Of a stretch of 30,736 bases of DNA, positions 2,006 through 7,083 are shown piece by piece; positions within the stretch are counted from its first letter, which is position 1, and each line of letters starts with the position of its first letter. The stretch comes from a virus: positions 1 to 30,736 of the IMG/VR virus record IMGVR_UViG_3300047494_000262. The stretch is one strand, 5' to 3'. The position numbers and the translations under genes were made by a program. A model generated the notes under the pieces. That model did no database searches. It saw only the letters and a list, made by a program, of their open reading frames with translations, and was not told where the DNA came from.

Positions 2006-2136
2006 GGAAAACGCTTCAAGATTATCCTCAGGAAATCCACCGTAGAAGGCCTGTCAACTGCCAGATTGTCCCGAAAATCAGCGTCTTAGGCTGTGGTTAT
2101 GTTCGCGTTTTCTTCGCCATGATATCCTTGCGGTTT

Positions 2137-2245: not shown

Positions 2246-3439
2246 GTGCCCGCTTTCTTCGACCTACCTTCATTCATCCGCCGCGTTTCAAATCCTCTCC
2301 TTCAACGGTTTTTTTCCGACACCGAGGCGTTCGCCCATTTCGACTGGACGGCTGCCAGTGGCAGAAAAACCGGACCGATCCTACATGCCTTCAATCTGAG
2401 CACGCCGGACCAGCGGCGAAACTCCTTCGAAGTTTTCCGCCGCGTCGAATCTCTGGCAACGTCCTTGGGGACACAGATGCTCATCGAAGCAAGCCGCCAG
2501 TCAGGCGATGGAGTTGCGGGAAAGCTGGCAGCCATGAGGAGCGCCCATGACCGCGCCTTCTGGATGTTTCTGGAGTATCCAAACGTTATCGATATCGCAC
2601 GGACGCTGGCGCGGATCGAATTGCTCCCGAAGAGGATGTGGGAGTCGCGGCAGGGGCTCCCTGTGCGGCAGCTTGAGGTGACCGACGCAGTCAGGGCGGA
2701 ACTACAGCGTCAGATCAAGGAAATGTATCAGCCCGAGCAGTGCCGCGGGGAGCATTGCGAGGTGGAGTATATGCGGCGGGAAGGCGGCATCGATTGCTTC
2801 TTCGCATATCCAGCCGATTATTTGGACGAGCGCGAAGGCTACGATTTGACGGGGCAGTTCGAACGGACTAACTGGAATCCCGCCTTCAAGATCGTTTATG
2901 CGTACCACTCAGCGGACGGCGCACTCGACGTCTGCGCGCAGGGCGGCACCAAAATCCGAAATCGTCTGGCCCACATCTTTGCCCGCGCGGTGCTCGGAGC
3001 CGATCAGGAACTGAAGCTCTCCGAACTGGACAGCTTTGACCTCGACGTTCTGAAGGACCCCAACCTGACCTTCCCGACGAACCCCGCCGACGGGATCTCG
3101 CGCGTCCGGATTCAATCTATGAAGCTGCGGTTTCTCGGCAAGAAGCCCGCAGTGATCGATGTCTCGATTGACGCACGCCGCCGGGAAGGTTCCATCCACG
3201 AGGTTCTGGCCGACAAATTCCGGGACGAACACGCGAGGCTGGCGACGGCCACAGTATCGGGTGCAGTCCTGCAGGCTTTCCTGCAGACGCCCGCAGGAAA
3301 GGAGCGGAGCATCAGTTTCCGTATCTCGATGCCGTCTTTCTGCGACCTCGAAGACTCGCCCGAGGACCAGATGCTGCGGGCATACCTGCCGATATGGAAG
3401 ATCCAAAAACATGCGAACAGTCTGGCAGCTACTGCTTGA
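2246..3439 (+). CDS. Conserved-looking protein of unknown function (397 aa), first gene of a two-gene unit
   Basis: I do not recognise this 397-aa protein. The GTG start is chosen because GGAGG (accggaggctaccaac) lies at ideal distance upstream. No signal peptide, membrane segment or nucleotide-binding motif is evident. The protein appears globular and mixed alpha/beta, with two Cys/His-containing stretches around residues 165-190 (EQCRGEHCEVEY, then IDCFFAYPADYLDE). Near residue 235 is GTKIRNRLAHIFARAVLG. It overlaps the next gene by 29 bases, so the pair is translationally coupled. The position between the recombinase and the phage early operon, with its own leader, fits a cargo gene. A defence or regulatory role is only a guess from location. 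Confidence 0.8.
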   Translation: MPAFFDLPSFIRRVSNPLLQRFFSDTEAFAHFDWTAASGRKTGPILHAFNLSTPDQRRNSFEVFRRVESLATSLGTQMLIEASRQSGDGVAGKLAAMRSAHDRAFWMFLEYPNVIDIARTLARIELLPKRMWESRQGLPVRQLEVTDAVRAELQRQIKEMYQPEQCRGEHCEVEYMRREGGIDCFFAYPADYLDEREGYDLTGQFERTNWNPAFKIVYAYHSADGALDVCAQGGTKIRNRLAHIFARAVLGADQELKLSELDSFDLDVLKDPNLTFPTNPADGISRVRIQSMKLRFLGKKPAVIDVSIDARRREGSIHEVLADKFRDEHARLATATVSGAVLQAFLQTPAGKERSISFRISMPSFCDLEDSPEDQMLRAYLPIWKIQKHANSLAATA

Positions 3440-4841
3440 TCGGCTGGCCAACGGTGGGCCGATCGAGGCCGACGAAGTGCGCCGCCTGGACAAGAAGCAA
3501 TGGCAGGATGCCCTCGTGCTGGGGCTGCTGCGCGAAATAGAGATGGTGGAATCGATCATCTGCGATCAGTGCGGTGACGGACACTGGGCCGGGATCCATT
3601 GGGTGAAGCCGGGAGTCGAGGCTGTTTTCGGATGCACCGAAGGCGTCTTCGAAATCGAAATCGACCGGTTGCGGCAGTGGCGAGTCGACGCTGTTCGCGT
3701 GGCGGAGCTTGCTGCAGGCAGCCTCGATCTTCCTTCCGCCGTTGAGATTCTGCTGCCGGACTGCCTTTGGCGTATTGGCCGGAGGCGGCTGGGCGGGCGG
3801 TACCGGGACATCTTCTTCGGGATTGGAGGGGACGTGTCGGTGTCCGCGATGTCGGCCGCGATCCGGTCATCCATCGGCCCGGGCTCGGCACTGCTGCTTA
3901 CGATTGGCACCAGAGTGAATCCGGAAGGCCTGCCTGCCGGCCAGTACCTGTTCGACCTCGCTTCCGTATCCCGCGTTGAAGATGAACGCGTGGTGATCGA
4001 TCTCGAATACATTGGGGACAGGCTAACGGAAAGCGGGGCACCGGCCCGCAAATCAATGGCCAGCATTCCGGCTCCAGCCGGAACGACCTGGCGACAAGTT
4101 TCGATCATCGTCTTCGAGAGCTTCATGGAGATCGCGGCCGGCGGCACTGTCCGCGAAGTTGCGTTTTCCGAACTCGGCGTGGAGCAAGGCTCGCAACCCA
4201 TTGAGTTGCTGAAATGCTTTGCCGCAGCACGAGGAACGCTGGGTGCGGAGAAGATCAAGGATCTGGTCGGAGGGGCATCGCTCCCGAAAGCACGCGTGCT
4301 GCGCCTCCGCCAATTGCTGCAGCCTTTGATCGAGATCGACGGCGATCCGATCAAACACAACAGAAAAGCCGGTAGTTACTCGTGCCAGTTCGAGATCCGG
4401 CTCGCCGGAGACGACGGGTTCCACACGCCAGCCGGCGCAACCTGGCTGGACCTGACCTTTCACGAAAGGGAGGATGGCCGCATCATCGTGTCAGTTCCGG
4501 AGAGGCGGAAGTTCCGGGCGCATGGATTGAATGTCGATGGCCAGGGAACCGGCGAGGTTGCGGAGCGAAGCGCTCTGACTTCCCGAACTCACTCGCTGGA
4601 AGAGATCGGGTTACGTGCGGAGTCCGGCAGACTCACGGAAGAAGGCCGTGAATTCGTGACGCTACTCAGGGCCAGCGGAACCCTCGCGCGCGGCGGCAAC
4701 GACATGACGGTGCTCCAGCTCGCGAAGCGGCTTCGCGCGTGGACAGGGCTCGACGGCGAACCCCTCCGCCTGATCGAAGCGACCGGGTCGTGGTCGGCGG
4801 TTTTCGCCTGCTCAAGCGGGGCGGTTCAAACAAAGAAATAA
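3411..4841 (+). CDS. Unknown protein (476 aa), second gene of the two-gene unit; possible C-terminal winged helix
   Basis: The ATG at 3411 is preceded by GGAAG and lies inside the end of the 397-aa gene; the open frame runs further upstream, but there it only shadows that gene. The product is 476 aa and I cannot assign a family. Features seen: an N-terminal helical segment with CDQCGDGHW near residue 50 (a CxxC that could bind metal), a long beta-rich middle, and around residues 265-320 a helix-rich stretch (AAARGTLGAEKIKDLVGG, then LRLRQLLQPLIEIDGDPI). That stretch resembles a response-regulator-type winged helix followed by a beta hairpin. The C-terminus is helical. It is convergent with the DUF429 gene, with only 22 bases between the stops. 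DNA binding is a weak inference. Confidence 0.8.
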   Translation: MRTVWQLLLDRLANGGPIEADEVRRLDKKQWQDALVLGLLREIEMVESIICDQCGDGHWAGIHWVKPGVEAVFGCTEGVFEIEIDRLRQWRVDAVRVAELAAGSLDLPSAVEILLPDCLWRIGRRRLGGRYRDIFFGIGGDVSVSAMSAAIRSSIGPGSALLLTIGTRVNPEGLPAGQYLFDLASVSRVEDERVVIDLEYIGDRLTESGAPARKSMASIPAPAGTTWRQVSIIVFESFMEIAAGGTVREVAFSELGVEQGSQPIELLKCFAAARGTLGAEKIKDLVGGASLPKARVLRLRQLLQPLIEIDGDPIKHNRKAGSYSCQFEIRLAGDDGFHTPAGATWLDLTFHEREDGRIIVSVPERRKFRAHGLNVDGQGTGEVAERSALTSRTHSLEEIGLRAESGRLTEEGREFVTLLRASGTLARGGNDMTVLQLAKRLRAWTGLDGEPLRLIEATGSWSAVFACSSGAVQTKK

Positions 4842-4863
4842 GCACTCTCAGCCGCACGAGCAG

Positions 4864-5652
4864 TCAGGCGACACCCAGAATCCACCCCTCGATCTCCGCT
4901 GTCTTTCTCTCGGCCTTCTCAAGCTGAGGATTCAGAGCGTGCGCCAGCGCTCCGCTGATGTCAGCCTGGCGCATCCACGCCGCGATCGAATAGGCGTCGT
5001 GTTGGTCGCTGTTCCGGCCATCCCGCGGGAAGCTCCGGCTCCAGAGCGCGGGATAGACCTCCGCAACTGCAGACAGCCCCGGTGGAATTTGCCAGCCATC
5101 GAACGGCCAGAAGTGCACGCGCCGAGTTGCTTGTCGCCTCAGATGGAGGAGCCAGGGAAGTCCGGCATGAGTAGACTTCGCTACCGACCCCTGCACGTCG
5201 AAGTGAAAAACAGACTTTGCCGCGCCCGCTCGAATTTCAGTTACGCGCCTCCAGCGACTGTTTCCTGAGCGCGCTTCGCCATTGCCAAGCAGCCCTTCGC
5301 GCACAAAATCGACATAGACATCTTCGTCGGTTGGCCAGTGGCGGTGGAAGTCCTCGAGAAATGCTTCCCAGTTGTGCAGCAGATGGTGCCGGTGAAAATA
5401 CTGCAGCGGGAACGAGAAGCCGTGGTCGACGCCGACCAGGGTGCGCGGTGATTCAGAAAGCCGGGCTGTAAGCCACTCGGCGAGGCCGCGGCGTGTCCAG
5501 TATTTGCGCGGACTCGGCGGTGGTTCCACCTCGAAGGGCGGCGTCGCCGGATCGGCCATGTAGACCCGCAGACCTTTGAGGCTCGAAGTCGGAGTCTGGG
5601 CTCCCGAATAGTCGATGCCGACGTAACGGTCAAACATGGGTTTTTCGCTCAT
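4864..5652 (-). CDS. DUF429-type protein, predicted RNase-H-fold nuclease
   Basis: A 262-aa minus-strand protein. The ATG at 5652 is preferred because GGGAGGA stands about 8 bases upstream; the frame is open for 34 more codons but that part does not look coding. The N-terminus YVGIDYSGAQ (Asp14) and the later LVGVDHGFSFP (Asp76), VAEVYPALW (Glu198) and DQHDAYSIAAW (Asp216/Asp219) match the acidic pattern of the DUF429 family, which is predicted to have an RNase-H-like fold. No biochemical function is established for most members. It is the only minus-strand gene in the left third and is divergent from the early operon, sharing a 197-bp control region with it. Confidence 0.8.
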   Translation of the reverse strand: MSEKPMFDRYVGIDYSGAQTPTSSLKGLRVYMADPATPPFEVEPPPSPRKYWTRRGLAEWLTARLSESPRTLVGVDHGFSFPLQYFHRHHLLHNWEAFLEDFHRHWPTDEDVYVDFVREGLLGNGEARSGNSRWRRVTEIRAGAAKSVFHFDVQGSVAKSTHAGLPWLLHLRRQATRRVHFWPFDGWQIPPGLSAVAEVYPALWSRSFPRDGRNSDQHDAYSIAAWMRQADISGALAHALNPQLEKAERKTAEIEGWILGVA

Positions 5653-6176: not shown

Positions 6177-6526
6177 TGCCAGCCATGACACGAGCCACGC
6201 GGTTTTCACAACTCTCCGCACCAGAGCGGACGCTGGTACGGATTCTTCAATCGATCAATTTCGGTTCTATCGAACTGCTCGTAGTTCGAGGAGGCGAACC
6301 GGTTTTCAGTCCCGAACCGACGGTGCTGGTGGAACTGAAGCTCGATTCGGAGCCGGAGCCGCGACCAGAGAGCGACATCGCTGACTTCGAGCTTCGCGCC
6401 GAGATTACTCGTCTTCTGGCTCAGATCGACCATCTGGGCGACGGTTCGATTGAACGAATCGAAGTCCGGCACGGGATTCCCTGGCGTATGGTGATCGAGC
6501 GCTCTTTGAGAGGGGGCCGGCGATGA
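6176..6526 (+). CDS. Small hypothetical protein with an internal duplicated motif
   Basis: A 116-aa protein starting at the ATG that overlaps the previous stop (TGATG); a GTG three bases earlier is an alternative. I do not recognise a named family. Two similar segments are visible: SINFGSIELLVVRGGEPVF (about residues 26-44) and GDGSIERIEVRHGIPWRM (about 90-107), both of the pattern G-S-I-E-x2-x-V-R-x-G-x-P. This suggests two copies of a small beta-hairpin unit joined by an acidic linker (ELKLDSEPEPRPESD). It overlaps the sigma-like gene by ATGA and should be co-translated with it, so a role as its partner is possible. Confidence 0.7.
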   Translation: MPAMTRATRFSQLSAPERTLVRILQSINFGSIELLVVRGGEPVFSPEPTVLVELKLDSEPEPRPESDIADFELRAEITRLLAQIDHLGDGSIERIEVRHGIPWRMVIERSLRGGRR

Positions 6527-7083
6527 TGGCGGCAACCGCTGCACCCCTCATGGAATTCACTCCTTACCTGCTCAGCCAGACGGGACTTCGGGCGAGCTTG
6601 CTTCGTACAAGCTTTCAACTGGCTGCGGACGACTGGGAAGACATGCGGCAGGAGATGGTTCTCGATTGCCTGCGGCGCCTGCCGAGATTCAACGCGTCGC
6701 GCGGTGACTGGCGAGGCTTTGTGCGCGGCGTTGTCCGGAATCATGCGTGCGTTCTGGCAACGCGAAGAACCCGTTGCCGCGAATTCCAATCGACGGATTG
6801 CGAGGAGAGCATCGACGTATCCCTGGACGAAACCGCAGAAGCACGAACCGGCGTCGTTCCGGACTTCCGGCCCGCGCTGGAATTCAGTCTCGATCTTGAA
6901 CGAATCATCGCGCGTCTTCCCGAGGAATCGCGGACTGTAGCCCGTTACCTGGCCGAGATGCCGATATCCGCCATTTGCCGGCGAACGGGTCTATCCCGCC
7001 ATCGAGTCGGATTGCACATCGCGCTGATTCGGGCGGTGCTGGAAGCGGCTGGTTTCACTGGGAAACGGGGCGGCTGCCAATGA
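6523..7083 (+). CDS. Sigma-70-family-like protein (ECF-type RNA polymerase sigma factor)
   Basis: A 186-aa protein with a sigma-like layout. The region-2-like part (about residues 35-80) has DDWEDMRQEMVLDCLRRLPRF followed by a W-rGFvr-VVRNHA helix. An acidic linker follows, then a region-4-like part (about 127-180) with LPEESRTVARYLAEMPISAI and a helix-turn-helix containing TGLSRHRVGLH. The size fits ECF sigma factors. The start codon region is ATGATG after a strong GAGAGGGGG site, overlapping the previous stop; ATG 6526 is the alternative. It is coupled by ATGA to the helicase gene. It may switch host RNA polymerase to element promoters. The alternative is a helper of replication with a sigma-like HTH. 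Confidence 0.75.
   Translation: MMAATAAPLMEFTPYLLSQTGLRASLLRTSFQLAADDWEDMRQEMVLDCLRRLPRFNASRGDWRGFVRGVVRNHACVLATRRTRCREFQSTDCEESIDVSLDETAEARTGVVPDFRPALEFSLDLERIIARLPEESRTVARYLAEMPISAICRRTGLSRHRVGLHIALIRAVLEAAGFTGKRGGCQ

Follow-up and report, generated by a model that had tools for sequence, protein, structure and literature searches.

Phage lambda carries the two-gene unit rexAB beside its cI gene, and RexB is a small membrane protein. The RexA protein of lambda is reported to have a DNA-binding fold in common with RdgC, Iml3 and Chl4 (Adams et al. 2024, PMC11077077). Chl4 belongs, with CENP-N, to the eukaryotic inner kinetochore.

Here we describe a pair of overlapping genes, A and B, in a 30.7-kb virus record (IMGVR_UViG_3300047494_000262), the whole of which is referred to below as the window. 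Like rexAB, A and B form a two-gene unit in a temperate phage, and the predicted structure of A resembles the fold class of RexA (PMC11077077), at middling Z and with no support from sequence. The two systems differ in that A has no sequence similarity to RexA and carries an extra N-terminal helical domain, and RexB is not matched by B, a predicted soluble protein of 476 residues with a winged helix. Whereas rexAB lies beside cI, and A-B likewise lies beside a repressor gene in the second set of loci, group 2 (L017-L074), the pair in the window phage does not. We put the probability that A-B is a self-contained regulatory module of temperate phages, tuning the early or lysogenic programme, at about 45%.

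Results

Gene A occupies positions 2246-3439 of the plus strand and encodes 397 amino acids from a GTG start, with a ribosome-binding site (GGAGG in the sequence) at 2233-2237 on the same strand; gene B, also on the plus strand, occupies 3411-4841 and encodes 476 amino acids. The two genes overlap by 29 bp, and their sizes are those given in the original prediction of a translationally coupled pair. Purifying selection acts on both, as dN/dS values from comparisons with L003 and L013 are 0.11-0.16 for A and 0.22-0.28 for B. The closest relative of the window is L003, a region resembling a prophage in the genome of an uncultured member of the Acidobacteriia, with ~81% DNA identity across 6.7 kb and A and B proteins that are 86% and 85% identical. 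This region begins beside BREX genes (PglX part, BrxC and BrxF; L012:120-5609), which lie outside its integrase.

The pair is preceded in the window by two plus-strand genes that provide context and lie outside the module: a large serine recombinase, the integrase, recognized by a family profile match (1-1620), and a small HTH protein of the integrase cassette that matches phrog_14161 and is ParB-like by eye only (1595-2005). Behind B come a minus-strand gene (4864-5652) and then the early genes. The early region encodes a sigma-70/ECF-like protein (6523-7083; TIGR02937, E 6.8e-12) which is conserved in group 1, the relatives of the window phage, and may serve early promoters. A search of the window for structural RNAs gave no Rfam match.

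The earlier view that neither protein belongs to a nameable family stands for B, for which Pfam, PHROGs, NCBIfam, PADLOC and PDB sequences yielded no usable family, but not for A. Residues 9-394 of A match phrog_37634 (E 3.5e-25; PHROGs v4), a family annotated as of unknown function, and the A homologues of L002, L006 and L007 match it across nearly their whole length. This family covers A only, and it records no partner B, leader element or function. A had no match in PADLOC, Pfam or NCBIfam, and PADLOC assigned no family to A, to B or to the protein encoded at 4864-5652. Searches with tblastn using the window A and B found none in the phage and plasmid collections, and the pair is undescribed in the open-licence papers searched.

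We sought A by scanning viral contigs and 396 genomes of the phylum (Acidobacteria search). By profile, 76 of the fetched loci contain A and 73 contain B; some of these loci represent one contig fetched twice. Wherever A is intact and the DNA behind it is available, B follows directly. A was seen without B in just two places, each represented by two loci, because the contig stops 55 bp behind A in one (G052; L007/L010) and A is truncated in the other (G323; L008/L011); in L075, B stands at the start of the contig. The B start typically falls 3-28 nt ahead of the A stop, and the alignment of B contains a long form of ~480 residues and a shorter form of ~270-330. A search that started from B matched 2 of 392 genomes, in both cases beside A. 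A-B is a real unit, co-conserved over very divergent phages. The original prediction had allowed that the two genes might not be conserved together, or might prove to have structural or housekeeping homologues; they are co-conserved across loci, and no homologue of either kind was found.

A-B homologues (Tel_16815 and Tel_16810; L102:7995-12676) are also present on the Candidatus Tenderia electrophaga plasmid CP013100, where they are followed by multiubiquitin, JAB and ThiF/E1 genes on the same strand and then by a tyrosine integrase. A link to a bacterial ubiquitin-like operon is possible in this one case. Regular membership of multiubiquitin (Multi_ubiq) operons was considered and rejected, this plasmid being the single example, and none of the Multi_ubiq places identified among 392 genomes of the phylum has A or B nearer than 1.5 kb. 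In L009 (1487-9805), which like L011 comes from the Acidobacteria search, A lies directly beside a CRISPR locus comprising an array, cas2- and cas1-like genes and a PADLOC-confirmed Cas9. An array-like repeat beside the truncated A of L011 (1-2056) has repeats resembling those of L009.

The leader of A contains a promoter-like element at 2102-2128 (plus strand), composed of TTCG at 2102-2105, seven intervening nucleotides, a second TTCG at 2113-2116, TG at 2120-2121 and the -10-like hexamer TATCCT at 2123-2128, and it may function as a promoter and operator. When six leaders were aligned, the short TTCG-N7-TTCG block was kept even to L016. This block was the sole combination of 4-mer and period common to these first six leaders, and 0 of 300 shuffles of three divergent leaders had any common 4-mer repeat with a period of 10-11. 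Among 9 leaders obtained afterwards, 7 have the element, which brings the total to 13 of 15; the A-B leaders of L139 and L143 lack it. It is inverted together with A-B in L135-L137 and absent from both loci without A-B, L141 and L142. A copy in L154 (3463-3489) lies behind a ParB-like gene with no A downstream and a capsid-like gene instead.

Directly behind the repeat is TG-N-TAxxxT, an extended -10 motif that was recognized from conservation only; scanning the leader with a sigma-70 consensus gave no match. The spacing would place the first TTCG at the -35 position. We scanned the viral collection with the DNA pattern TTCGYN6TTCGCCRTGMTAN3T and recovered 15 contigs: 8 A leaders, 3 leaders of a divergent A-like gene, 1 integrase cassette without A, and 3 unrelated coding sites. 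The divergent product, 398 residues where complete, aligned with the A profile by hhalign at E 4.5e-5 over 335 columns, and in L162 its gene is followed by an overlapping gene with a Cys-rich part that was not recognized by the B profile. The element is found in leaders of A and of the divergent A-like gene and flips with A-B; it therefore belongs to the A-B unit. In group 2, the leaders had no dominant common direct repeat. The pair was originally credited with its own leader carrying inverted repeats. The pair does have its own promoter-like element in the leader, but the inverted repeats amount to two weak pairs (10-12 nt) that are not common to relatives and were discarded; what is conserved is the direct repeat and extended -10. 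Candidates for a protein that binds the element are B, A and the ParB-like protein (1595-2005).

The AlphaFold model of A, built with 29 sequences (pLDDT 79.7), has a helical N-terminal domain (residues 1-126) and a two-part beta body (residues 125-385). Its best fold match is CENP-N/Chl4 (Foldseek E 1.4e-3; Z 7.3, rmsd 5.0-5.5 Å, residues 58-257), which includes the helical part, at ~7% identity and Z <8. RdgC (2owy) matches residues 125-383 with Z 6.4 and 192 aligned positions, the rmsd being 11.6 Å with a differing domain orientation, and the N-terminal domain and the partner B are additional in A-B. The model matches Iml3 with Z 5.0. A BFVD fold search gave weak matches only, among which a phage RdgC ranked sixth (E 0.05). 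At the sequence level, hhalign of the A alignment provided no support (RdgC E 0.16, RexA E 0.49), and the RdgC profile PF04381 had no match in the window record at E<=10. These comparisons are suggestive of a place for A in the fold class of CENP-N/Chl4, RdgC, Iml3 and RexA, at Z <8 and with no sequence support, and A may well bind DNA.

B was modelled with 35 sequences as a string of soluble mixed alpha/beta domains (pLDDT 82.4), whose arrangement is uncertain because pTM is 0.45. An N-terminal winged-helix-like part is followed by a CxxC...C ribbon at residues 48-92 (CDQCG), and residues 228-335 (nt 4092-4415) are predicted to form an OmpR-type winged helix that matches BaeR with Z 9.1 over 91 residues at 2.7 Å. 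CadC (Z 8.1) and many more OmpR-class structures also match the predicted model. Both kinds of stretch first picked out from the sequence are borne out, the CxxC motif in the protein sequence and the winged-helix character in the model. The Pfam sequence search did not recognize the class of this winged helix, giving a sub-threshold HTH_IclR match on a fragment only. The domain resembles that of OmpR/PhoB response regulators, but B has no predicted receiver domain. The C-terminal part is confined to long forms of B. We rejected the middle domain (residues 93-214) as an active PD-(D/E)xK nuclease: its fold matches are weak (Card1 Z 6.2, EndoMS 5.6), and no conserved catalytic motif was seen in alignment A6.

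Group 1 loci have the order DUF2924, serine integrase, ParB-like gene, A, B, a variable slot, g6, g7 and a sigma-like gene, and separate scans that used the ParB-like and g6 proteins as queries supplied further contigs of this group. A-B is present between the integrase cassette and the early genes in 15 of 17 distinct framework contigs, in three of them inverted (L135-L137). Its place is taken in the other two by a 251-residue protein with an HTH-like end (L141) and a 390-residue protein (L142), and because these relatives do without A-B, the pair is not essential to the framework. The same integrase cassette is found without A-B in L141, L142, L148-L150, L154 and L157.

The slot behind B holds a DUF429-like gene in the window, L003 and L129 and a nuclease-like gene in L014 and L146, and is empty in some relatives; AbiE genes follow B in 11 group-2 loci. 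The nuclease-like gene (L014:4835-5617; L146:9861-10643) is on the minus strand and has weak matches to REase-ARP/NERD nucleases. Since the content of the slot varies, the DUF429-like gene is cargo that adjoins the module, and its grouping with A and B into a three-gene unit in the original prediction does not hold. The identification of its product (262 residues; 4864-5652, minus strand) as DUF429 also fell short, as no match to Pfam DUF429 (PF04250) appeared at E<=10 in the window, whereas control genomes did give matches. There is only a weak NCBIfam match (3.8e-6), and the residues GIDYSG ... GVDHGFSFP ... EVYPALW ... DQHDAYSIAAW resemble DUF429 by eye.

Group-2 loci place A-B in another setting. 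Of 42 loci whose flanks are long enough, 41 have a gene for an ImmA-type peptidase upstream of A, by a hand count that includes near-identical contigs; 29 of these genes are divergent from A and 12 co-directional, and an XRE repressor gene mostly accompanies them. The gene identities come from Pfam. This cassette recalls the ImmR/ImmA genes of the ICEBs1 type, an XRE repressor and an ImmA/IrrE (Peptidase_M78) protein, and is a neighbour of A-B, not a relative. In the window phage no XRE/ImmA cassette adjoins A-B. Behind the pair in group 2 come genes for an Xis-like HTH protein, a Sak4-like ATPase, an SSB-like protein and a helicase, and serine recombinase genes are also close to A in many loci. 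Upstream of the XRE/ImmA cassette of two A-B prophages is a large ATPase gene (L032:42-4270, L050:1084-4272), accompanied in L032 by a gene that is McrC-like by eye; PADLOC gave partial matches to the large protein only, and these genes possibly represent an McrBC-like restriction system. From its positions in groups 1 and 2, A-B is therefore an exchangeable control-region module, neither random cargo nor strictly essential.

Discussion

If A-B is a regulatory module, the two genes would be co-transcribed from the extended -10 promoter with an 11-bp direct repeat in its -35/spacer region. A would be a DNA-binding protein with a CENP-N/RdgC/RexA-like body, and B would partner it as an adaptor of several domains, among them a ribbon that contains Cys residues and a winged helix of the OmpR type. 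Proteins of the OmpR/PhoB class commonly bind direct repeats of ~11 bp, near the -10. The A-B product probably binds the 11-bp direct repeat and regulates its own expression; we propose this autoregulation because B has an OmpR-type winged helix and the repeat has the form of a site for that class. By acting on phage DNA, or on host replication or recombination proteins, A-B would then tune the early or lysogenic programme, an effect comparable to the biasing of the lambda switch by RexA. DNA binding by A, complex formation, promoter function, autoregulation and the effect on the switch are the steps that we infer. The original prediction spoke of a defence or regulatory module, and the regulatory half fits best, given the winged helix in B and the XRE/ImmA adjacency, while the defence half finds no PADLOC match.

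A further possibility, which we regard as doubtful, is a Rex-like lysogeny/exclusion module of a new kind, present in plasmids as well as temperate phages from several bacterial groups, that combines a DNA clamp of the RdgC/CENP-N fold with a multi-winged-helix adaptor. The adaptor would replace the membrane protein RexB, and the pair would read its own 11-bp direct-repeat promoter.

It is unlikely that A-B is superinfection-exclusion or anti-phage defence cargo that senses invader DNA or recombination intermediates and blocks the invader. A place behind the integrase, exchangeable and invertible, would suit such cargo, as would neighbours in relatives that include AbiE, the CRISPR-Cas9 locus of L009 and, once, a multiubiquitin operon, and an exclusion phenotype is known for RexA, which may be related to A in fold (PMC11077077). 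However, neither A nor B matches PADLOC, Pfam or NCBIfam, and nothing in the pair is recognizable as an effector, a nuclease or a membrane part. Within its phage groups the pair is nearly universal and borders on a regulatory cassette, and defence genes occupy a separate, often empty slot.

A role in phage recombination or replication also seems improbable; in this reading A would restrain host RecA or shield phage DNA as a clamp similar to RdgC, and B would target or load A. RdgC is among the fold matches of A (residues 125-383), and in group 2 A-B heads the operon with the Sak4-like ATPase, SSB-like and helicase genes. Against this, the RdgC match has the large rmsd and Z <8 given above with no sequence support, and in L135-L137 inversion turns the pair away from the early operon, while L141 and L142 lack it. 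A function of A-B as an accessory or directionality factor for the serine integrase is very improbable: the pair directly follows the integrase cassette in group 1 and is near serine recombinase genes in many group-2 loci, but the same cassette occurs without it in L141, L142, L148-L150, L154 and L157, group-2 operons have a separate Xis-like HTH gene, and the plasmid copy is near a tyrosine integrase.

With these results, two anonymous genes become a defined, widespread unit with a switch sequence and a fold that can be tested, and the leader element is so specific that it retrieves distant members from the DNA sequence without help from the proteins. Should A prove to be a RexA/RdgC-like clamp, control regions of phages would contain this fold far more often than the small number of Rex systems known so far implies, and CENP-N/Chl4 of the kinetochore would gain further possible relatives among phages.
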